From Nitrospirota bacterium (GTDB taxonomy: Bacteria > Nitrospirota > Nitrospiria > Nitrospirales > Nitrospiraceae): a DNA stretch of 45,764 nucleotides. Positions within the stretch are counted from its first letter, which is position 1, and every line of letters begins with the position of its first letter. The DNA is taken from assembly GCA_005877775.1 (NCBI GenBank), contig VBOJ01000075.1:1-45764 (forward strand), given 5' to 3'. The notes under the pieces are model-generated. The model was not told the DNA's origin, ran no database searches, and saw nothing but the letters and a program-made list of their open reading frames with translations. Positions 21,076 through 31,401 of the stretch are shown in pieces. The position numbers were made by a program, and so were the translations under genes.

Positions 21076-21336
21076 TTAGACACATCCGGTTGCCTCTCCC
21101 ACAGCAACTTCACGCTTCTCTTTCATGAGGCCTCCCTGGTTTTCTCGACATTGATGATTAGCGTCCACGTTTAACACTCTGTACGGTCTTTCCTTGCACA
21201 GATACTGCACAGCCTCTTCAGCGTCTTCCCTCCTGGAGCAGTTGACGCAAGCGTAGAAATGGCCCACCAATCCTTCCAGCATGTCGATCACACGCTCCGG
21301 GAACATCATCCCCCGACACTTTTTGCACGTGCGCAT
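21076..21336 (-). CDS. Small zinc-ribbon protein
   Basis: 86 residues. Two CxxC pairs, MRTCKKCRGMMFPERV and YACVNCSRRED, form a predicted zinc ribbon; the first is only three residues from the start. The rest is polar. Such small zinc-ribbon proteins are often DNA or RNA associated, but no function can be named. The start is set by GCAGGAGGTCGAAG directly upstream of ATG 21336; the frame is open further upstream without a good signal. Confidence 0.6.
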   Translation of the reverse strand: MRTCKKCRGMMFPERVIDMLEGLVGHFYACVNCSRREDAEEAVQYLCKERPYRVLNVDANHQCRENQGGLMKEKREVAVGEATGCV

Positions 21337-21565
21337 CTTCGACCTCCTGCTGCAGATTGAGAAACGTGGGTTAGCAACCTGCGTCAACTGCCCAGTCATC
21401 TCGCTGATCATATTATTGAGCTTCAATCAGCGCCCCGACGGTAGGTGAGACGGCGGGCGGGAGGAATCAGGTGAATAGAGGAATCGATGAGGGATAAATA
21501 CCTGATGGCGATCCTTCTTCAAGCATCGTGGCAGATATTTTGGTAAAAGGCTTCCCCTCTCCTTG

Positions 21566-21631
21566 ATCAGGTGTTTCCTCCAAGTTCATTCGGGTGATTC
21601 CTTCCGTTGAATTGCGGTATTTGCCGGATTG
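21566..21631 (+). promoter_or_regulatory. Shared operator motif, copy A
   Basis: Three boxes in direct orientation: ATCAGGTGTTTCCTCC (21566), ATTCGGGTGATTCCTT (21588) and ATTGCGGTATTTGCCGGATTG (21611), spaced 22 and 23 bp. A -10-like TTAAAG lies about 19 bp past the last box, and TATACA follows at about 21674. The first gene downstream is 21727-22023. Confidence 0.55.
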
Positions 21632-21726
21632 TCCTTTCCCGACCAGTCACTTAAAGAGCTCGTAAGAGATTCTATACAAATGATCATCATGACTCATCAT
21701 GATGATGCGGGGAGGGAACCACCAAA

Positions 21727-22023
21727 ATGGAACAATCAACAAATGAAATCCTCTCACGCATCGAGTGGTGCCGGCTCCAGCGGAAGGGGGCGGTCACACG
21801 TGACGAAGAGGAGGGGTGGCAGGCGGAGGAAGCAGGGCTCATTGATGCCTTGCTCGGTAGGGATCGGACAGAAATGAGGAAAACGTCCCATCCCTCTTTG
21901 CTTGAGCGCTATAGACTTGGCCTACAGGATGGGCAAGTGCTCATGCGCTTTACTCCAGCGCTACAACCGGACGGCGTAAAATCTGAAACCACGGAAGGGC
22001 TCATCCAAGTCCCTTCCAGATAA
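21727..22023 (+). CDS. Hypothetical protein, possible regulated small protein
   Basis: 98 residues: MEQSTNEILSRIEWCRLQRKG followed by a charged, mainly helical body (EEEGWQAEEAGLIDALLGRD, LLERYRLGLQDGQVLMRF). No domain recognised. It is preceded by copy A of the shared operator, which is what makes it interesting, and GGGAGG is found about ten bases before the start. A possible terminator follows at 22022-22065. Confidence 0.5.
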   Translation: MEQSTNEILSRIEWCRLQRKGAVTRDEEEGWQAEEAGLIDALLGRDRTEMRKTSHPSLLERYRLGLQDGQVLMRFTPALQPDGVKSETTEGLIQVPSR

Positions 22024-22065
22024 CAGGCCGATCCGGCAGAGGTCCCGTGAGCCCCTCCGCCTGTT
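22022..22065 (+). terminator. Possible terminator after the 98-residue gene
   Basis: AACAGGC (22022-22028) can pair with GCCTGTT (22059-22065), with a GCAGAGG/CCTCCGC-like inner stem, and T-rich sequence follows. The run of T is short, so this is tentative. Confidence 0.3.
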
Positions 22066-22188
22066 CTTTCACTTAATAAAAAAGATGCATGGCGACGATG
22101 CTCTGGTGAGACCGCCTTTGGGTCGGTGGATGCATGCTGACGGCACAATCGCTACTCAGTCCCATTCTCTAGAGAGGTGGCGTGTAAT

Positions 22189-22608
22189 ATGGCAGCAACG
22201 TCTCCTGCAGCCCAAGAACGTCGGCGTAGCCAACGGATTCCGCTGTCAGTTCCACTATTCGTCACGAGCCTGGATCCCGCTTATGCATTCACCGGGAATG
22301 TACATGCCACCCAGGTGAGTGGCCACGGTTGTATGCTCCATGCTTTCCGTCCCTTCAAGCGCGGCACCAAGCTGCGCCTGGACATTGTTTCCCGCCACTA
22401 CAGTACCACCGCGCATGTTGTACACTCACATCCGACTGGAACGCCCGCTCCGAACTGGAAGGTCGCGCTGGAACTCGAAAAACCAGGAAATTTTTGGAGG
22501 CTTTCGGCCCCCCCACCAGACTGGCTCGGGACTTCGGAACAGCAGCGTAAGAGCGAGAGTCCGCGTTCCGGTTCCGTCAGTGACTCTGCTGGAGAGAACC
22601 AGTCGTGA
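22189..22608 (+). CDS. PilZ domain protein
   Basis: 139 residues. The N-terminal RRRSQRIPLSVPLFV carries the RxxxR part of the cyclic di-GMP-binding signature, and QVSGHGCML about 30 residues later is the xVSxxG part, with Q in place of the usual D/N. A beta-barrel core (GTKLRLDIVSRHYSTTAHVVHS, WKVALELEKP) follows, then a polar tail. It may bind cyclic di-GMP, though the altered second motif could weaken this. Start chosen at ATG 22189 with GAGAGGTGG eight bases upstream. It lies between the hypothetical gene and the stressosome operon, same strand. Confidence 0.75.
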   Translation: MAATSPAAQERRRSQRIPLSVPLFVTSLDPAYAFTGNVHATQVSGHGCMLHAFRPFKRGTKLRLDIVSRHYSTTAHVVHSHPTGTPAPNWKVALELEKPGNFWRLSAPPPDWLGTSEQQRKSESPRSGSVSDSAGENQS

Positions 22609-22649
22609 CTTGCTGATTCAGGTAAGTCCGCGCTTCATATCTCCTTAAA

Positions 22650-22693
22650 ATTCAGGTGTTTCCCCCTCTGACATTCGGGTGTATACCTGATTG
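22650..22693 (+). promoter_or_regulatory. Shared operator motif, copy B
   Basis: Two boxes: ATTCAGGTGTTTCCCC (22650) and ATTCGGGTGTATACCTGATTG (22673), 23 bp apart, clearly direct repeats of one another. The region lies upstream of the stressosome operon (rsbR start at 22979). Confidence 0.6.
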
Positions 22694-22757
22694 TTCCCCT
22701 CCGGCCTTTCCTCTACCTTTCCCTTAAGGTCTCTGACTGATCAGAAGCTAGTCCTCC

Positions 22758-22766
22758 TGCTACAAT
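22758..22766 (+). promoter_or_regulatory. Extended -10 upstream of rsbR
   Basis: TGCTACAAT, an extended -10, lies about 65 bases after copy B of the operator and would give a leader of about 205 bases for rsbR. Confidence 0.35.
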
Positions 22767-22978
22767 GGTTGTTGCGATCTCGCTGCTGCCCGCATACACT
22801 ACCTTTCGTCAGAGAAGGACGGGAAACCTTGCCGGTAATGATGGCCCACTCGGGAAGATGGGAGGGGGTCTCTTCAAGATTCGATCGAAAGCGGTCGTGA
22901 TCGCGGTTTCACGATCAATGTCCACAGGCGTATATAAACGTATATTATAGATGGCCCTTATGAAGGCAGGAGGCTCAC

Positions 22979-23914
22979 ATGGGTGACGAGAAAGCAAAGA
23001 GAAAAGAAGAAAGAGGTGGGACTGTCTCTCCTGCTAGGTTAGTGCCTCCTGCCGGTGACGAGTCTACCGGTCCCTTGTTGCGCGAGCTCGTCTCCCACCT
23101 GCGGAAAAACCGCACGCAACTCCGCGAGGAGTGGGCACGACGCATCACGGAGGCCAAGTTGCTTACGGCGATGACCAGAGAGGAAATCTTCGCCGAAGCC
23201 ACATCGGTCTATGACAACTACGTGGAGGTGCTGGAAACCGGCGCCGTTGAGGCGTTGCAAGCTTACGCCCGCAACCTCTCCGAACGCATCATCCCGAGGG
23301 GAGTGGAAACCGACGAGGTCGTGGGGATCGTGCTGCTCCTGCGCGACGTGCTCGCGCGCTCGCTCTTCGCAAAATACCAAACAGACTTCCAGCTCCTCAA
23401 CCGCATCCTCGACGCCTATGAGCCTGCAGCCAACCGCATCGCCAACACGGTGGCAGTGGGGTTCGTTCAGGAGCGCGAACGCATCATTCGCCAGCAACAA
23501 GAAGCCATTCGGGAACTCTCCACGCCTGTGCTCCAGGTCCGCGAGCGGTTGCTCATCCTGCCGATTATCGGCGTGATCGATCCCCATCGCGCCCGTCAGT
23601 TGACCGAACAACTGCTGCGGGGTATTCGGACCAACCGCGCCAAGGTTGTCGTGATTGACATCACCGGTGTGGCAGCCATGGACGCCACCGTGGCGAATCA
23701 CCTCGTTCAAACTGTGGAGGCGTCGCGGCTGTTGGGTGCGATCGTCATCGTCACCGGCCTGTCGCCTGAAATTGCTCAGACTCTGGTGACCATCGGTGTG
23801 GATCTAGGCAAGATGAATACGGTCGGAGACCTCCAGGGCGGCATCGAAGAAGCCGAACGGCTGTTAGGCTACAAGGTGGCCCTCATCAGCGAACCCATTC
23901 AACCAATCACCTAG
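22979..23914 (+). CDS. rsbR: RsbR-type stressosome sensor
   Basis: 311 residues: an N-terminal helical sensor domain of the RsbRD_N type (LLRELVSHLRKNRTQLREEW, MTREEIFAEATSVYDNYVEV, LLLRDVLARSLFAKYQTDFQLLNRI), then a STAS domain (about 188-300). The STAS part contains VVVIDITGVAAMDATVANHL and LSPEIAQTLVTIGVDLG; T229 and T268 match the two regulatory threonines of RsbR that are phosphorylated by RsbT. GGAGG lies ahead of the start. First gene of a six-gene operon, 13 bp before rsbS. Confidence 0.88.
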   Translation: MGDEKAKRKEERGGTVSPARLVPPAGDESTGPLLRELVSHLRKNRTQLREEWARRITEAKLLTAMTREEIFAEATSVYDNYVEVLETGAVEALQAYARNLSERIIPRGVETDEVVGIVLLLRDVLARSLFAKYQTDFQLLNRILDAYEPAANRIANTVAVGFVQERERIIRQQQEAIRELSTPVLQVRERLLILPIIGVIDPHRARQLTEQLLRGIRTNRAKVVVIDITGVAAMDATVANHLVQTVEASRLLGAIVIVTGLSPEIAQTLVTIGVDLGKMNTVGDLQGGIEEAERLLGYKVALISEPIQPIT

Positions 23915-23927
23915 GGAGTGCGCGATC

Positions 23928-24299
23928 GTGCAAGTTCCCATTCTCAAGCAAGGGCAATACCTGATCGCTTCCATCCAAGCCGCCCTCAGCGACCAAGACC
24001 TGGTGCAATTGCGGGACGCGTTAGCTGAGAAGGTCGGCAGGCTGCGTGCTCGGGGGGTCATCGTGGATGTCACGGTTCTAGACGTGATGGACTCGTTTGC
24101 CTCGCGCACCCTGCGCGATCTCGCCCATATGACCAGGTTACGTGGGGCGGAAACCGTGATCGTAGGGATCCAACCTGAGGTCGCGTTTTCGATGGTTCAG
24201 CTCGGGTTGACCCTGGAGGGAGTGGACACTGCCCTGGATTTGGAGGAAGGGCTCACTTTCCTGGACAAGAAAACCAAGAGAAGCACGTCCCGTGGCTAG
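23928..24299 (+). CDS. rsbS: RsbS-type stressosome scaffold/antagonist
   Basis: A 123-residue single STAS domain with a GTG start. The central DVTVLDVMDSFASRTLRDLA matches RsbS, and S56 in the DSF motif corresponds to the serine phosphorylated by RsbT. In known stressosomes RsbS and RsbR build the icosahedral complex that holds RsbT. The last eight bases overlap the rsbT start. Confidence 0.87.
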   Translation: MQVPILKQGQYLIASIQAALSDQDLVQLRDALAEKVGRLRARGVIVDVTVLDVMDSFASRTLRDLAHMTRLRGAETVIVGIQPEVAFSMVQLGLTLEGVDTALDLEEGLTFLDKKTKRSTSRG

Positions 24300-24693
24300 T
24301 GAAACGATTTTTTCTATCTATACGGATGTCGACATCGTGCTCGCACGACAGAAGGGGCGTGAGTTAGCCAGCGAACTGGGCTTTGCGCTGACTGATTCGA
24401 CCCTCATTGCCACCGCCATCTCGGAGCTCGCACGGAACATCGTCCTTTATGCCAAGCAGGGCGAAATCGTCATCAAGAACTCGCTCGTCGGCGACCGAGT
24501 GTGCATTGTCGTGGTGGCTCGAGACAAGGGACCTGGTATTGCCGACATTCCGCAGGCCATGCAGGATGGCTTCTCCACGTCCGGCGGTCTGGGTCTGGGC
24601 TTACCTGGAGTGAAACGCCTTGTGGATGAGTTTCACCTCGTCTCAGATGCGAACTCCGGAACGACCATCACCATCAAGAAGTGGAAACGATGA
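24292..24693 (+). CDS. rsbT: RsbT-type serine/threonine kinase (GHKL)
   Basis: 133 residues, HATPase of the anti-sigma kinase class. ATP-binding motifs: N box ATAISELARNIVLYA (E45, N49), DKGPGI (78-83) and GLGLGLPG (100-106). RsbT phosphorylates RsbS and RsbR and, once freed, binds and activates the N-terminal domain of its output protein. GTG start within rsbS; stop overlaps the next start (ATGA). Overlapping genes indicate translational coupling. Confidence 0.87.
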   Translation: MASETIFSIYTDVDIVLARQKGRELASELGFALTDSTLIATAISELARNIVLYAKQGEIVIKNSLVGDRVCIVVVARDKGPGIADIPQAMQDGFSTSGGLGLGLPGVKRLVDEFHLVSDANSGTTITIKKWKR

Positions 24694-25289
24694 ATTCGCA
24701 CCTCATCGAATGGGGAGTCGCCTGCTTGACGATGCCGGGGGAATCCCAATCGGGTGACCGGCACCTGGTCCAGCCCTACACTAACGGGGTGCTCGTGGCA
24801 GTGGTGGACGGGCTGGGACATGGCGCGCAGGCGGCTGCGGCCGCCGAACTCGCGGTCACCATCCTGAGCAAATACGCACACGAATCCGTGATCGCGCTAT
24901 GTAAACGCTGTCACGATGGCCTGCGTAAAACCCGTGGCGTGGTCATGAGCCTGGCGTCATTCAACGAGCGGGATCAAACCTTGACATGGATGGGGATCGG
25001 AAATGTGGAAGGCTTGGTTCTAAGCGTGGAAAGCTCTCCACGCCCGCGAGACGAGTATTTGTTCCTGCGCGGCGGCGTGGTCGGCGGCCACCTCCCATCG
25101 CTGAGCGCATCCTTCATGCCGGTGATGCGGGGTGATACGCTGATTTTCGTCACCGACGGTATCCGCAGCGGCTTTGCCAAGGGACTGTCCATGAGCGATC
25201 CGCCGAAGCTGATAGCCAACCGAGTCCTTGCCGACTATAGCAAGGGCTCGGACGACGCTCTCGTGCTCGTCGCGCGCTATTTAAAATAG
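24690..25289 (+). CDS. rsbX: RsbX-type PP2C/SpoIIE phosphatase
   Basis: 199 residues of the SpoIIE/PP2C fold: metal-binding aspartates in VAVVDGLGHGAQAAAAAE and FVTDGIRSGFA, and a terminal DDALVLVARY with the conserved Asp pair. RsbX removes phosphate from the stressosome proteins and resets the switch. The ATG at 24690 overlaps the rsbT stop as ATGA; an in-frame GTG nine bases before is less likely. Confidence 0.82.
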   Translation: MNSHLIEWGVACLTMPGESQSGDRHLVQPYTNGVLVAVVDGLGHGAQAAAAAELAVTILSKYAHESVIALCKRCHDGLRKTRGVVMSLASFNERDQTLTWMGIGNVEGLVLSVESSPRPRDEYLFLRGGVVGGHLPSLSASFMPVMRGDTLIFVTDGIRSGFAKGLSMSDPPKLIANRVLADYSKGSDDALVLVARYLK

Positions 25290-25296
25290 GTTCACC

Positions 25297-26235
25297 ATGC
25301 CGGAGACCATGGATAAGCTGGAGGACCAATATACGGCCGCGCTGCGGGACTCCATCCGGGGGGTGGGAGAACCCGCCTTGCAACAAGCGTACGAGTTGGG
25401 GCGCAGAGCGTTAGCCGAAGGGCTGGGTGTGCTGGACATGGCAACCATATATCACAAGGCCTTGGCAGCAGTGTTGTCTCGGGCCACGACGCCGGAAGAG
25501 AAGACACTGACGCTCCGAGCGGGGGCGAGCTTTTTTGTGGAAAGCCTGTCGCCGTTTGAAATGACCCACCGTGGGTTTCGAGAAACCAACACCACACTGC
25601 GTCGCCTGAATCAGACACTGGAGGAAGAATCCAAACGAATCGCCCATGCCCTTCATGATGAGGCAGGACAACTTCTCGCCTCGGTTCATCTCGCCTTGGA
25701 AGAGGTGGCCGGGAACCTGCCGCCCGCTAGGGAGCACCTCCAAAAAGTGAAGGGGCTACTCGACCAAATCGAGGGGCAGTTGAGGCGACTCTCACACGAA
25801 CTGCGCCCCACGATCCTTGACGATTTGGGACTGCTTCCTGCCCTCAAATTCCTGGCCGAGGGTGTCGCCGCCCGGACCGGACTCCTCATCACGGTGGAAG
25901 ACGAGTCTGCACTCTCACTCTCTCCTGTACTGGAGACCACTCTGTACCGGATCGTGCAGGAAGCGCTCACCAACGTGGCGAGACATGCCAAAGCGTCTCA
26001 GGTGGATGTCACCTTTCATCAAGACCTCCAGACGCTCCGGTGCTCCATCAGGGATAATGGCGTCGGCTTTGACGTGGCAGCCGTCTTGGCCAGGATCGGT
26101 GGACGAGGTCTCGGCTTGATCGGCATTCGGGAACGTCTGAACAGCTTAGGCGGCTCGCTTTCGATCATGTCCAAGCAGGGCCAAGGAACCGAGCTGGTGA
26201 TCACAATTCCTCACACAAACTCACGGGAGGCGTAA
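25297..26235 (+). CDS. Histidine kinase with RsbU-like N-terminal domain
   Basis: 312 residues. The first about 100 (LRDSIRGVGEPALQQAYELGRRALAE, IYHKALAAVL, EEKTLTLRAGASFFVESLSPFEMTHRGF) resemble the RsbT-binding N-terminal domain of RsbU. The rest is a NarL-type HisKA_3 kinase: SKRIAHALHDEAGQLLASVH with phospho-acceptor H120, N box EALTNVARHAKA, DNGVGFD and GRGLGLIGIRERLNSLGG. There is no membrane segment. So stress released via RsbT would reach a two-component system rather than a sigma-B cascade. This RsbU_N assignment is by eye. Next gene starts one base after the stop. Confidence 0.83.
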   Translation: MPETMDKLEDQYTAALRDSIRGVGEPALQQAYELGRRALAEGLGVLDMATIYHKALAAVLSRATTPEEKTLTLRAGASFFVESLSPFEMTHRGFRETNTTLRRLNQTLEEESKRIAHALHDEAGQLLASVHLALEEVAGNLPPAREHLQKVKGLLDQIEGQLRRLSHELRPTILDDLGLLPALKFLAEGVAARTGLLITVEDESALSLSPVLETTLYRIVQEALTNVARHAKASQVDVTFHQDLQTLRCSIRDNGVGFDVAAVLARIGGRGLGLIGIRERLNSLGGSLSIMSKQGQGTELVITIPHTNSREA

Positions 26236-26236
26236 G

Positions 26237-26869
26237 ATGTCGCTGCATATTCTGCTAGCCGACGATCATCTCATCGTCCGCCAAGGTCTCAAGGTCCTGT
26301 TAGAGCGGGAAGGATTTGACGTGGTTGGAGAAGCTTGCGACGGCCGTGAGGCGGTCCGGCTGGCCCAGGAGCTCTCCCCGGACATCGCCTTGCTCGACCT
26401 CACTATGCCCCTGTTGAATGGCGTAGATGCGGGACGAGCCATACTGCAGACCTCTCCCAAAACGAAAGTCGTCCTCTTAACCATGCACACCGAGAACCAT
26501 TATGTCCTAGACGCTCTTCGCGCCGGCATTAAGGGGTACGTCTTGAAGACCAAGGCGGCTGAGGAACTCGTCCAAGCCATCCAGGAGGTCTCGCTGGGGA
26601 AACTTTATTTGACTCCTGGAGTCTCTGAGGTGGTCGTTCAAGCGTACTTGGCCAAAACTGACCTGCCTCCAGAGCCCCTTAGCCTGAGAGAGCGGGAAGT
26701 TCTGCAACTCATTGCCGAGGGCAAGACCACCAAGGAGGTGGCTGTCGTTCTGGGGATCAGCGTGAAGACCGCGGAGTCTCACAGGACCAGAATGATGGAG
26801 AAACTGAACGTCCATGAAACGGCCAGCCTGGTCCGTTATGCCATCAAACGGGGCATCGTTCAACCTTAG
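26237..26869 (+). CDS. NarL/LuxR-type response regulator
   Basis: 210 residues. Receiver domain: D54 in IALLDLTMP as phospho-acceptor, T82 and K104 in place. C-terminal helix-turn-helix: LSLREREVLQLIAEGKTTKEVAVVLGISVKTAESHRTRMMEKL. It is coupled to the histidine kinase gene (one base between). It is the likely transcriptional output of the stressosome module. Whether it binds the operator motif found around here is not known. Confidence 0.9.
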   Translation: MSLHILLADDHLIVRQGLKVLLEREGFDVVGEACDGREAVRLAQELSPDIALLDLTMPLLNGVDAGRAILQTSPKTKVVLLTMHTENHYVLDALRAGIKGYVLKTKAAEELVQAIQEVSLGKLYLTPGVSEVVVQAYLAKTDLPPEPLSLREREVLQLIAEGKTTKEVAVVLGISVKTAESHRTRMMEKLNVHETASLVRYAIKRGIVQP

Positions 26870-26897
26870 CATCCGTTCCGGAACTCTTTCCATTCTC

Positions 26898-26942
26898 ATC
26901 TCAGGGATATTCTCCCCTCCCATTGAAGGATTTGCTCGATAG
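26898..26942 (+). promoter_or_regulatory. Shared operator motif, copy C
   Basis: Boxes ATCTCAGGGATATTCTCCCC (26898) and ATTGAAGGATTTGCTCGATAG (26922), 24 bp apart; TATCTG follows about 20 bp after. The second box and about 25 following bases are repeated at 27039 in copy D with strong identity, suggesting duplication. Confidence 0.55.
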
Positions 26943-26993
26943 CAGCTCAGGTCCTCTAGATTATCTGCTTTTGTTACTTAACCTCTTCTTAAC

Positions 26994-27059
26994 ACTCAGG
27001 AATATTTCCCCCTCTAATCAGTGATTTTCCTCCCCCCAATTGCGGGCTTTACCCGATAG
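26994..27059 (+). promoter_or_regulatory. Shared operator motif, copy D
   Basis: Three boxes: ACTCAGGAATATTTCCCC (26994), ATCAGTGATTTTCCTC (27017) and ATTGCGGGCTTTACCCGATAG (27039), spaced 22-23 bp. TATCAA follows about 20 bp after the last box, at a distance suited to a -10 element. It precedes the LuxR-type gene at 27123. Confidence 0.6.
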
Positions 27060-27122
27060 CAGCTCTCGTCCTTTTAGCTTATCAATTCACCGTAACCTAT
27101 GGAAGACTCCAGGGAGGTCAAC

Positions 27123-27827
27123 ATGGAAGACTATGTGGATGTGGATGATGTGGATAATGTTTCGTCCGACCACAAGGGCAGCATGGCGTCCCAGCACGCT
27201 GGACCCGGCATCATGTTGCTCACGGCCTCTATGCAACTGCTCTATAAGGATCGGCGGGCGTTGGAACTGTGCGAGCAAATCATTCGATGCCAGAACGGGA
27301 AACCTGCAAACGGGGTGCTCCCGCCAGCCGTTGCCTGTCTTGCTGATCAAATCCGGAAAATCCTCCAAGTCCGAACCGATCCGAAATACTGGGAACAGTT
27401 TCAAATCATGCACGCCGTGAAGACTTTCCATCGCCCCGTGCTCTTGTGCGGCAAGGGCTTGATTGATCTGAGCAACGGGGAGAAACGAATCCTCATCGTG
27501 ATGAACGAGATTGGAATCGGTGCATGGCAGGACAACGTCGTCGGCCAGGCGAAGGAGAAGTTTCGCCTGACCGCTCGCGAAACAATCGTCGTCCAACATC
27601 TCTTGAAAGGTTGGACCAACAAGGAAATCGCCAACGAAATGGGGCTGGCCTTACAGACAGTCAAGGAGCATTTCAAGCACATTTTGGAAAAAACCCGCAC
27701 CACCACGCGTACAGGGATCGTCATGCAGATCGTCAACTGTGGATTAGAGTATACCCCCCCAACTCCTTCACTAAATATGGGTATGCCTGCCATAGCCAGC
27801 AGACCTCTCGAGCTGGCATCGGCATGA
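27123..27827 (+). CDS. LuxR-type (GerE) transcriptional regulator with PAS-like N-terminus
   Basis: 234 residues. The C-terminal third is a helix-turn-helix of the LuxR class, FRLTARETIVVQHLLKGWTNKEIANEMGLALQTVKEHFKHIL. The N-terminal part (GIMLLTASMQLLYKDRRALEL, RPVLLCGKGLIDLSNGEKRILIVMNE) has a beta-alpha pattern like a PAS or similar sensor fold. There is no receiver aspartate. I prefer ATG 27123, with GGGAGGTC upstream, to ATG 27099, which has no ribosome-binding site. It lies after the two operator copies C and D. Confidence 0.75.
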   Translation: MEDYVDVDDVDNVSSDHKGSMASQHAGPGIMLLTASMQLLYKDRRALELCEQIIRCQNGKPANGVLPPAVACLADQIRKILQVRTDPKYWEQFQIMHAVKTFHRPVLLCGKGLIDLSNGEKRILIVMNEIGIGAWQDNVVGQAKEKFRLTARETIVVQHLLKGWTNKEIANEMGLALQTVKEHFKHILEKTRTTTRTGIVMQIVNCGLEYTPPTPSLNMGMPAIASRPLELASA

Positions 27828-27876
27828 TGGCCTTGGTGCAGAACAACACCTGAGGGCAGTTACGAAGGAGGTCATG

Positions 27877-28431
27877 ATGGAATCCACCTCGTTCTCGGTG
27901 CAGAACGAAACTCCTCGCACTCCTCATCCGCTTCCCCACTTTGGAGTGCGAGGCTTTGCCGACAGCAAGGCACCGCTCTCTTCCGACTACTTGTCAGATA
28001 GCTTTCACAATTTGATTGGACGGTACCGAGTTCGGGGCCAGTACGCCGAAATGGAGCCGCTGTGCCAACTCGCCCTTGAAATCCAAGAAAAAACCTTGGG
28101 ACCAGAGCACTTCGAGGTGGCGCTCACTCTCAACGATCTGGCAGAGGCGTACCATCTTCAGGGCAAGTACGCGAAGGCCGAGCTACTGTACAACCGCGCG
28201 CTGGTGATTTTGAAAAACACCTTGGGAAATGAGCATCCGAGGGTATCCACCACCCTTGGCAACCTAGCGAGGGTATTCGCCGTTCAGGGCCACTATACCC
28301 AGGCGGAGCAGTTCTATCTGTGCTCGCTTGCAATCCAAAAGAAGACGCTAGGACCAGACCATCCAGATGTGGCCCTTAATCTGAAGCATTTGGCTGACCT
28401 TTACCACAGGTGGAGTCTTACCACATTATGA
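27877..28431 (+). CDS. TPR (kinesin-light-chain type) repeat protein
   Basis: 184 residues with about 2.5-3 TPR units of 42 residues, each of the form ALEIQEKTLGPEHFEVALTL or LADLYHxxGxYxxAE. The last unit breaks off at LADLYHRWSLTTL; family members usually carry more units, so the 3' end may be lost by a rearrangement at the junction with the carbamoyltransferase relic. Start: AAGGAGG at 27865-27871 favours ATG 27877 (an adjacent ATG is at 27874). Protein-protein interaction role; partner unknown. Confidence 0.75.
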   Translation: MESTSFSVQNETPRTPHPLPHFGVRGFADSKAPLSSDYLSDSFHNLIGRYRVRGQYAEMEPLCQLALEIQEKTLGPEHFEVALTLNDLAEAYHLQGKYAKAELLYNRALVILKNTLGNEHPRVSTTLGNLARVFAVQGHYTQAEQFYLCSLAIQKKTLGPDHPDVALNLKHLADLYHRWSLTTL

Positions 28432-28700
28432 ACCACACGAAAGATAGATGAAGTAACCACCGCGTGCGGGCCACAGGCCACTCATCAGCCCCTCAGGCAT
28501 CAGCAAGTCTCAAACAGGGTAGTGATAAGGGCGCGACAGCCATCGCCTGCCTCCTCCTTAAAATTGTCGGGTCATATGGGCTCGATGCGGCGGTTTGAAC
28601 CGGAGACGAGCGGCGGCCGCGGCAGGGGCCCGAGGCCAAAAAGATAGCGCCGTACGAACCCAATGGGGGCGAAGAGTCCAGCCGGAATTGATCTGGCGAC

Positions 28701-28984
28701 TCATTGCCCCCTGGGAAAGCCGACAATGGGCTCCCCTCGCACGTTGAAGGAGGGGTAGAACGCGGAAGCGGCTTGGGATTCGTGGTGCTCGGCAAAGTTG
28801 AGGCGCAAACGCCAGATAAGTCTCCAGCAGCCACTCAAACTTGACGAGGGGTTTCTCATAGAACACGATGGCGCGGAGGGCCGGCACGGCGATGCCCCCC
28901 TAGCGCAGACAGTAGCGGATCGCCCGGTTCGGAAACCGCGGATCGTGCTTCTTGCGCGTAAACCGCTCTTCCTGGGCCGCCGAC
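28701..28984 (-). pseudogene. Carbamoyltransferase relic
   Basis: On the minus strand, from about 28984 downward, the frame reads AAQEERFTRKKHDPRFPNRA and IRYCLR, then a stop (TAG), then GGIAVPALRAIVFYEKPLVK and FEWLLETYLAFAPQL. Another frame gives AEHHESQAASAFYPS, the next conserved block. This is the N-terminal region of NodU/CmcH-like carbamoyltransferases. The stop, the frame change and the loss of most of the protein show it is dead. Its start is missing (the homologous part is cut near 28984). It lies directly downstream of the SGNH hydrolase gene, an arrangement expected in exopolysaccharide loci. The 28432-28700 stretch on either side holds nothing else that I recognise. Confidence 0.65.
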
Positions 28985-29004
28985 TAGAGAGAGGGGGTAA
29001 TGTC

Positions 29005-30120
29005 CTACCTCGTGGGGACGAGACCTTCCTGAAGGAGGTATTGTTCAATAGCTTCCGCCACAACCCTGTGACCGTGAGGAGAATAGTGAACATTATCCCA
29101 CGGGATGAATAGATCAGAGCCAGTGGCATAGGCCTGTTGCAACGGCTCCAGCACATCAAGGGTCCGAAGGCCAAGCTTCCTGGCGATTGAGCTGATTCGT
29201 TGTTGCATATGGATTGGCACATCCAAACGAGTGACTTGGGCTGAAAGAGGGAGAATGACAACAATGGGGACAAAACCATGAGTGTCAGCAAGAGCCTTGA
29301 ATTCTTCCAAGCTGTCGGCAACATCACGATACGCTTTTGCGAGATAGGGGCTTGAACGTCCCTCAAAAATCATCTCTTGATGGACCCAGTCGAACGTAGG
29401 CGATATTTTGTACCGTAGAATGTTCAACCGTTCTCGAAGGAACAGGAGCAGGGTGCTCCTCTTGAACGCTCTGAGATACTTCGAATTGGCATTGCCATCG
29501 GCATCGAGCAGCTCACCGCTCTGACTGGGTGGGAACGGAATGACTGGATTCGGTCTTATGTAAAGATCATTCCAATAAAAGGCGACCAGGACAATGTCAG
29601 GCTGAACGTGAAGTCCCTTTTCTCTAAGAAGATCGATCTCCTGCCATATCGAATATCCTCCGACAGCACCGTTCATGACACGGACTGAATCAGAGCGGCG
29701 CCCCAGCAATATTTCCAATTGATTCACGTAAGTATCGCCCACAGACACGCCTAGTCCGACAGCCATCGAATCGCCTAATGAGAGGAGCCGGAATTCTCCC
29801 ACTTTGTTCAATGGCACTTCCCGATGGTCCCGGAATCCCATTGAGTTGGTAACAAAAGGCTGATCAATTGTAAAAGCATGCTGGTTCGGTATGTGGTCAT
29901 AGATCCTTCTCGCATTTGATTCCACCAACATTTGAGGATGAATCACACGAAGGCCTGGTGGCAAAAAGAGCCTTGCCATGGCCTCGCCAATAACAAATAA
30001 CAGGACGAATTCAACGAGCAGGAGAGCGCTCATCTTGAATACGCCATTCTTTCTTCTTGACGAGCGGAAACGCATGACAATTTCTTGGCCTTGGCTCAAC
30101 TTCTCTGTTCCATTAAGCAT
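29005..30120 (-). CDS. Membrane-anchored SGNH/GDSL hydrolase
   Basis: 371 residues. An N-terminal membrane segment (SALLLVEFVLLFVIGEAMA, residues 31-49) precedes the SGNH fold: RLLSLGDSMA with catalytic S118, GAVGGYSI (block II glycine), YWNDLY (N184, block III) and IPWDNVHYSPHG (D342, H345). Such proteins often deacylate or acylate surface polysaccharides. It probably acts outside the membrane. Start 30120 chosen for AGGAG upstream; the frame is open to 30183. It is preceded by operator copy F and followed by a carbamoyltransferase relic. Confidence 0.83.
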   Translation of the reverse strand: MLNGTEKLSQGQEIVMRFRSSRRKNGVFKMSALLLVEFVLLFVIGEAMARLFLPPGLRVIHPQMLVESNARRIYDHIPNQHAFTIDQPFVTNSMGFRDHREVPLNKVGEFRLLSLGDSMAVGLGVSVGDTYVNQLEILLGRRSDSVRVMNGAVGGYSIWQEIDLLREKGLHVQPDIVLVAFYWNDLYIRPNPVIPFPPSQSGELLDADGNANSKYLRAFKRSTLLLFLRERLNILRYKISPTFDWVHQEMIFEGRSSPYLAKAYRDVADSLEEFKALADTHGFVPIVVILPLSAQVTRLDVPIHMQQRISSIARKLGLRTLDVLEPLQQAYATGSDLFIPWDNVHYSPHGHRVVAEAIEQYLLQEGLVPTR

Positions 30121-30212
30121 AGGTAGGCTCCTGTTTTCTGAAACTGAAGGTGCCGGCAGGGGAACGCCCACTGCCCCATTCAAGAAAGAATAGGCAATGA
30201 CTCAAAGAGGAA

Positions 30213-30257
30213 CGATCAGGCAAGTGCTTTCATGGATAGGGGGGAAACACCTGTCAT
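30213..30257 (-). promoter_or_regulatory. Shared operator motif, copy F
   Basis: On the minus strand ATGACAGGTGTTTCCCCCC starts at 30257 and ATGAAAGCACTTGCCTGATCG starts at 30233, 24 bp apart. TATTCT (30187-30192) follows about 20 bp after, then the SGNH start at 30120. Confidence 0.55.
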
Positions 30258-30409
30258 GCAAGATGGCGGTTTTTGTGAAGTTCATAGTTACTAACGGACC
30301 ATGGAGGCACTGAACATCCGTGACAGGGCCGATCACGTTCGCTATGCGACCCGCCAGTGACTTGATCAGTCTTCCAGCCTCGTGAACGCTTCAGAGATCC
30401 TGCTTCCGT

Positions 30410-30452
30410 ATCAGGGAATTTACACTCATGGATGCCGGAGTTTACCGGATAC
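30410..30452 (+). promoter_or_regulatory. Shared operator motif, copy E
   Basis: ATCAGGGAATTTACAC (30410) and ATGCCGGAGTTTACCGGATAC (30432) are spaced 22 bp. TAGACT follows about 20 bp after. It lies 253 bp upstream of the orphan response regulator start and divergent from copy F. The rest of 30184-30705 holds no gene I can support. Confidence 0.55.
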
Positions 30453-30705
30453 ACCCCCTCTAGGCCGCAACTTAGACTAACAAAAGAAAAGTATCCCTCT
30501 CGGCAGAAAAGTCGTTGGCATTCCGCTCTCCTGTTCAACGCCGAAGGCTATCCAACGCGGAGGGGAGACCAAGAATCTTTCTTTGCGCAGTCGAGACGAT
30601 GGCTGCGTCAGTCAGAAGCTCATCGCCTCAGACTGGGTCATCGCTACCACAATGGAGCAGAACGCTCCGTATTTACCCCTCGGTATGTTGACGGGGAAGA
30701 TCAAC

Positions 30706-31401
30706 ATGGCTCAGAAGATCCTGGTTGTAGAGGACATGGAGAGCGTGGTGGAAACGATGAGGGCTCTATTGGAACAGGAAGGTTTCCAGGTGGTGGTGGC
30801 CCGCAATGGGTTGGAAGGGTTACAAGCGGTGAACAAGGAGAGGCCAGACCTGCTTCTCCTCGACCTTATCCTTCCCGGTCTTGACGGACTGGAAGTCTGC
30901 CGGAGGCTCCGCCGAAATCCGGAAACAGCTCAACTCCCCATTCTCATGCTGAGTGGCAAGGCGGAAGAGACTGATAAAGTGGTCGGCCTTGAAGTTGGAG
31001 CCGATGACTATATCACCAAGCCCTTTAGCCCCAAGGAATTAATCGCCAGAGTAAAGAGCCACCTTCGACGATTTCAGTCAGCCTCGCCCTCAAACCTCCT
31101 GCGAGCGGGTGGGATTGAAATGGATCTGGATCGCTTCACGGTAACCATCAGGGGTGACCCGGTTTCGCTCACGGCAAAAGAATTCCAGCTCCTGAAAGCC
31201 CTGCTCGAAGCGGAGGGACGGGTTGCGAGTCGTGAGTTTTTATTCGAGACAGTCTGGGGCCATGATAGGAGGACCGAGGTCGACTCCCGGACAATCGACG
31301 TTCATATTCGCAGTCTCAGGAATAAGCTGAGTCCTGAAGGACGTCGCATCCATACGGTACGGAATGTCGGATACCGACTTGGGACAGTCCCAGATGAATA
31401 G
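30706..31401 (+). CDS. OmpR/PhoB-type response regulator, orphan
   Basis: 231 residues. Receiver: D53 in LLLLDLILPG, K105 in YITKPFS. Winged helix: LRAGGIEMDLDRFTVTIRG, LTAKEFQLLKALLEAEGRV, SREFLFETVWG, VDVHIRSLRNKL and HTVRNVGYRLG. No kinase gene is adjacent. The start at MAQKILVVEDM is chosen by homology; in-frame upstream ATGs lie in the leader and have no ribosome-binding site. A repeat with 22-bp spacing upstream is the pattern expected for operators of this family (11-bp half sites), so it may regulate itself and the other copies. Confidence 0.88.
   Translation: MAQKILVVEDMESVVETMRALLEQEGFQVVVARNGLEGLQAVNKERPDLLLLDLILPGLDGLEVCRRLRRNPETAQLPILMLSGKAEETDKVVGLEVGADDYITKPFSPKELIARVKSHLRRFQSASPSNLLRAGGIEMDLDRFTVTIRGDPVSLTAKEFQLLKALLEAEGRVASREFLFETVWGHDRRTEVDSRTIDVHIRSLRNKLSPEGRRIHTVRNVGYRLGTVPDE

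Follow-up and report, generated by a model that had tools for sequence, protein, structure and literature searches.

The contig VBOJ01000075.1 of a Nitrospirota bacterium (assembly GCA_005877775.1; 45,764 nucleotides, analysed over its full length and called the window below) carries a stressosome operon surrounded by copies of a composite promoter element. We describe here this element, its distribution, and the regulator that probably reads it.

The operon lies on the forward strand and, according to Pfam, encodes RsbR, RsbS, RsbT and RsbX followed by a kinase and a response regulator, with conserved synteny. The genes of the stressosome core, rsbR, rsbS and rsbT (22979..24693), have STAS and HATPase_c matches and are syntenic in relatives, an RsbRD_N match falling just under its cutoff; the rsbX-like gene (24690..25289, Pfam SpoIIE) encodes a PP2C phosphatase. 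The histidine kinase (25297..26235) combines an RsbU_N domain (27.9 bits, for a cutoff of 25.5), which is predicted to be a dock for RsbT, with HisKA_3 and HATPase_c domains. It is followed by the gene of a NarL/FixJ-type response regulator (26237..26869, forward strand, Response_reg and GerE), the proposed binder of the element from its co-occurrence with the motif, in which the predicted phosphoacceptor, D54, is invariant in 15 homologues. Pfam places no sigB, rsbV or rsbW in the operon, the kinase and the NarL-type regulator coming after rsbX. In metagenome-assembled genomes (MAGs) from soil, in several phyla, it is common to find rsbRSTX immediately followed by the gene of a histidine kinase whose N-terminus carries an RsbU_N domain (loci L232-L276), and the kinases of this kind in genomes G034, G042 and G044 have more than 100 extra residues between RsbU_N and HisKA_3.

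Composite sites in the window

An earlier note, made from the sequence of the window, had placed six two-part sites around this operon. All of them are present at the named places and align without gaps over 39 bp, with 13 columns invariant across the six. The spacing between the two units, which had been put at 22 to 24 bp, is instead fixed at 23 bp in this alignment. When each site was scored against a matrix of the other five (leave-one-out), scores ranged from 26 to 33 bits, and all six ranked at the top over both strands of the window.

Site A (21591..21629, forward strand, 33.4 bits by leave-one-out, as are the scores below), which has a third unit from 21567 and a -10 TAAAGA at 21652-21657, is predicted to drive a unit made of hyp98 and PilZ genes (21727..22608, forward strand, Pfam PilZ), paralogous units of which are found behind sites on contigs C228 and C128 of the same genome. 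The hyp98 gene (21727-22023) belongs to a family of proteins of about 100 residues with no Pfam match, often with the motif before it and PilZ after it (L043, L057, L059, L197, L198). Site B (22653..22691, forward strand, 29.3 bits; -10 TACCTT at 22714-22719) lies before the stressosome operon, and its position is matched in G001, G166 and G168, as well as before rsbR in loci L237 and L291.

Sites C and D form a tandem pair between narL and an orphan LuxR-type gene, which together with a TPR gene makes up the predicted target unit behind both (27123..28431, forward strand, GerE). Site C (26902..26940, forward strand, 33.5 bits), the upstream copy, has a poorer -10 (TATCTG at 26962-26967), and site D (27019..27057, forward strand, 32.9 bits), before the LuxR-type gene, has an additional unit at 26996 and a -10 TATCAA at 27080-27085. 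The two share a 55-nt repeat that is 76% identical and are one promoter duplicated locally. The position of site D, just after narL, is kept in G001, G166-168, G041 and G044, and in other phyla.

Site E (30412..30450, forward strand, 25.8 bits; -10 TAGACT at 30473-30478) is found upstream of an orphan OmpR-type response regulator (30706..31401, forward strand, Response_reg and Trans_reg_C), a predicted target whose gene stands directly behind narL in G034, G044, G080, G172 and G077. Site F (30215..30253, reverse strand, 28.2 bits; -10 TATTCT at 30187-30192) is located upstream of another predicted target, an SGNH/GDSL hydrolase (29005..30183, reverse strand, Lipase_GDSL_2). The sole other high scorer under the leave-one-out ranking is a seventh site, G (21466..21504, reverse strand; -10 TACCGT at 21438-21443), divergent from A, which reaches 29.8 bits with the six-site matrix, for a next background score of 12, and 30.7 bits in the genome scan. 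The gene downstream of it encodes a small CxxC...CxxC protein (21076-21426, reverse strand); such zinc-ribbon-like proteins are also found behind sites in different genera (L048, L050, L116:3396-3743).

Could such a motif arise by chance, or from composition? The stretches between the boxes are indeed rich in C and T, and poly-pyrimidine composition had been named from the start as what might relate the sites. However, 2 Mb of first-order Markov sequence gave a maximum of 18 bits, even when modelled on pyrimidine-rich intergenic DNA, letter-shuffled sites reached at most 9 bits, and permuted matrices did not yield the motif either. Because random and shuffled sequence score far below the real sites, this explanation fails, and we give it virtually no weight: the motif goes beyond composition.

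Geometry of the element

A 71-bp gapless alignment of 26 sites from six genomes gives the consensus TCAGGtATTTcCCCCC-N4-ATTCcGGgATTtACCnGATTG-N20-TAnnnT, in which the 13-bp unit TCnGGnATTTnCC repeats at exactly 23 bp, all other shifts scoring lower. The -10 TAnnnT starts 22 bp past the terminal GAT in most sites, and the layout is kept in 71 sites from all sources. This fixed distance is an independent regularity, because the first profile, the source of most sites, ended upstream of the -10. Further up, at a distance of about 23 bp, a third unit is present in as many as 23 of the 71 sites, including A and D of the window, where the distance is 22 to 23 bp.

If transcription is assumed to start 7 nt after the -10, the distance from the GAT places the centre of the second unit near -43, that of the first near -66 and, where a third is present, that of the latter near -89. 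The operator stops at the -35 position, leaving the -10 uncovered, and the -35 itself is poor. The evidence favours an activator that takes the place of the -35, as had been suggested from the six sites. The same regulator might instead act as a repressor, or in both ways, for the sign of control is unreadable from sequence and the position before its own operon is that of an autoregulatory site. A free -10 next to a poor -35 is nevertheless the arrangement of activator-dependent promoters, and we regard repression or dual control as unlikely.

Both units contain a dyad with a GG-N6-CC core, the extended form TCnGG-N6-CCnGA being confined to box 2, with about 3 to 4 of 7 pairs on average. Reading CAGG...CCTG as a hairpin or RNA element was abandoned, since the pairing of its positions is not consistent from site to site.

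The conserved spacing, and the loose likeness of the end of box 2 (ACCnGAT) to a FliA -10, could also point to the promoter of an alternative sigma factor, FliA-like or of the extracytoplasmic function (ECF) type, with the boxes as its -35 and -10. An element of three conserved blocks that covers about 70 bp, and in some sites includes a third unit, is too long and too modular for a sigma factor alone, and Pfam detects no sigma-factor gene in the operon of the window. We reject such a reading of box 2 because of the repeats upstream of it and the -10 at a fixed distance downstream, and a sigma factor of this kind appears highly improbable.

Distribution and candidate regulators

The genome that contains the window is that of a soil or sediment Nitrospirota (3.06 Mb, 309 contigs, 92% complete). 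A rigid consensus pattern matched nothing in it, so profiles were needed, and genome-wide statements rest on searches with two of them, both built from sequence only (R1 from 7 sites, R2 from 26). Together with the position weight matrix they gave 13 sites at E<1e-3, namely the seven of the window and those on contigs C228, C270, C9, C148, C128 and C186. The sites examined lie upstream of genes, and certain kinds of target recur: hyp98-PilZ pairs (window, C228, C128), further PilZ genes (C148, C186), FecR-like secreted proteins (C270, C9) and regulators. The additional sites, at least six in number, are enriched at PilZ, regulator and FecR genes, and matches across the genome fall neither at random nor in coding sequence.

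At E<1e-5, sites turn up in 11 of 236 genomes of the order. Two of these belong to the genus of the window's own genome, three to genus g10 and four to genus g27, the other two being G003 and G041. Orthologues of the NarL-type regulator form a separate group in 13 genomes (at least 261 bits, against at most 202 for paralogues) and are present in nine of the 11 motif-positive ones (Fisher p = 7e-12, ignoring kinship, about five lineages being represented). In G044, which has the orthologue and falls below the E<1e-5 set, the operon is complete and a weaker site immediately follows narL. In G077, G080 and G172 there is no recognisable site near narL, and the NarL-OmpR pair has no adjoining stressosome or RsbU_N kinase; the pairs in these genomes (loci L220, L218 and L219, respectively) may represent an ancestral or rewired form.

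The earlier note had proposed two candidate binders, the NarL-type regulator of the operon and the orphan OmpR/PhoB-type regulator (30706-31401). Activation by the OmpR-type protein deserves consideration, since its family binds direct repeats located upstream of the -10, its gene comes after site E, and its orthologues adjoin narL in several genomes. Its distribution disfavours it, however: no orthologue (at least 263 bits) was found in six motif-positive genomes (G001, G003, G041, G166, G167 and G168), orthologues are present in the motif-free G077, G080 and G172, and the motif-bearing operons of other phyla match the OmpR-type protein weakly and by the receiver domain only. The usual repeat period for the family is 11 bp, not 23 bp, and shifts of 10 to 12 bp score only -1.65 to -1.79 in our alignment. 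We therefore hold binding by the OmpR-type regulator to be very unlikely.

A further candidate binder, by itself or jointly with the NarL-type regulator, is the orphan LuxR-type protein (27123-27827). Its gene follows sites C and D, binding near -42 is frequent among LuxR-type activators, and paralogues occur in G000, G001 and G003. Yet the family is found in many motif-free genomes (G006, G013, G022) and has numerous members in G028, a genome without significant sites, and no such gene was matched in the motif-bearing loci of other phyla; a role for it as binder is hard to credit.

Outside the order, a search with the kinase alignment identified 68 loci, mostly with the order rsbR-rsbS-rsbT-rsbX-kinase-narL, in Methylomirabilota, Rokubacteria, 'Deltaproteobacteria', Acidobacteria, Eisenbacteria, Gammaproteobacteria and others, as named in the titles of the deposited records. 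A matrix trained on Nitrospirota sites only, used at a threshold of 10 bits, found 27 sites on the strand of the operon and 2 on the opposite one over the 604,615 bp of other-phyla loci, compared with 0 to 1 for reversed or column-permuted matrices. The element is found in ten of these loci, including some from Rokubacteria, Methylomirabilota, 'Deltaproteobacteria' and Terriglobia, placed before rsbR, after narL, or directly before narL paralogues and NusG/UpxY-like genes; placement around the operon is as expected for autoregulation. The consensus of the 21 foreign sites above 20 bits is close to that of Nitrospirota, including the -10. Whole-genome scans gave 2 to 7 sites per genome, many of them clustered at the stressosome-kinase locus, and none to one in each of six control genomes that have the kinase with no site beside it. 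NarL is the sole DNA-binding protein common to the motif-bearing operons. The NarL-type regulator fits as the candidate binder, given that nine of the 11 motif-positive genomes of the order have an orthologue and that the site recurs beside the operon in other phyla.

A second NarL copy, 64 to 66% identical, is worth a separate mention. It is preceded by sites in loci L116:3275-11676 (G039:C188) and L211:2746-10874 (G042:C162), where a site also stands before a NusG-like gene and genes for polysaccharide-export and Wzz-like proteins, an apparent link between motif and exopolysaccharide.

A proposed stressosome-linked operator and its relation to known systems

What the sequences show directly is the element with its geometry, where it occurs within genomes and across phyla, and that it co-occurs with the NarL-type regulator; binding, activation and the flow of signal from RsbT are inferred. 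We propose, with a probability of about 0.8, that the NarL/FixJ-type regulator 26237-26869 controls a sigma70-type, activator-dependent promoter whose operator part is formed by these sites. Under stress, the RsbR/RsbS stressosome would let RsbT go, and the freed RsbT would dock on the RsbU_N domain of the kinase 25297-26235. RsbU_N binds RsbT in Bacillus (PMC9237108), and for this reason the release of RsbT should switch the kinase, which would then phosphorylate the NarL-type regulator. Dimers of the latter would settle on the tandem TCnGGnATTTnCC units, 23 bp apart, with the proximal one abutting the -35 position, and recruit RNA polymerase to the TAnnnT -10 with its poor -35, in a class II type of activation. 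The regulator may in this way activate its own operon via site B, and further the OmpR-type and LuxR-type regulators, PilZ genes, and surface or secreted proteins.

Several observations weigh against this proposal. A NarL dimer would be expected to bind a dyad, but the one found within each unit is partial and weaker than the direct repeat. Two motif-positive genomes did not yield the NarL orthologue: G003, a complete genome with one strong site, and G031, a 90% complete MAG with several. The site of G003 (L043:8328-8366), which is very strong, lies before a hyp98 gene. No clear site accompanies the stressosome operon of genus g27, where a second NarL copy near polysaccharide genes may be what many of the sites respond to. 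The recognition helix of the NarL-type regulator is similar to that of many paralogues and so does not reveal its specificity. In most Acidobacteria and Gammaproteobacteria that have the operon, no site could be recognised, and the operator is therefore not universal.

Stressosomes are widespread in bacteria devoid of SigB. Two-component systems behind stressosomes, some with RsbU_N, are already known (PMC9237108, PMC10014275). Our search of the literature found no DNA target, operator or regulon for stressosome-linked two-component systems, and nothing relevant joining 'Nitrospira' and 'stressosome'. The operator, its link to the NarL-type regulator and its occurrence across phyla appear to be new, the kind of system being known. 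The RsbRSTX-kinase-NarL operon seems to have been retained, or to have travelled, together with its operator-promoters among Nitrospirota, Methylomirabilota/Rokubacteria, Terriglobia and others. On balance, we favour the idea of a general, cross-phylum 'stressosome box', an operator that would give stressosomes lacking a sigma factor control over a small regulon comprising their own operon, PilZ genes, regulators and an exopolysaccharide antiterminator.

The same site stands beside the operon in several phyla, and genes under such stressosomes should therefore be readable from sequence, which would list their targets directly in uncultured soil and sediment bacteria. The predicted targets (cyclic di-GMP effectors, polysaccharide and surface proteins) suggest that a surface or biofilm state is controlled under stress. 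The operator also offers a compact in vitro test that would link stressosome, kinase, response regulator and promoter.

Four known systems can be compared with this one. In promoter layout it resembles that of BvgA of Bordetella, a NarL-family regulator whose dimers bind at 22-bp intervals on one helix face, the most proximal one abutting the -35 (PMC7250471). The sequence differs, however, and here all units are well conserved, the period is 23 bp and the kinase is coupled to a stressosome. In Vibrio vulnificus, the RsbRSTX operon is likewise followed by a two-component system (VvD1-VvD2), and not by SigB (PMC9237108, PMC10014275). No RsbU_N domain has been detected in VvD1, cyclic di-GMP turnover is the presumed output, and we found no DNA target described; in contrast, the kinase of the window has RsbU_N, and its regulator has a NarL-type DNA-binding domain and a definable operator. 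The SigB regulon of Bacillus and Listeria is also a stress regulon controlled by a stressosome, with RsbT acting through an RsbU_N domain, but here the output is a response regulator with its operator, and the regulon is much smaller (about 2 to 20 sites per genome). Lastly, many copies of box 2 read TCnGGnA-TT-TnCCnGA, an inverted 7-2-7 arrangement reminiscent of the NarL operator of E. coli, although the heptamer is another one, the dyad is partly conserved, and the 23-bp direct repeat is the stronger feature.

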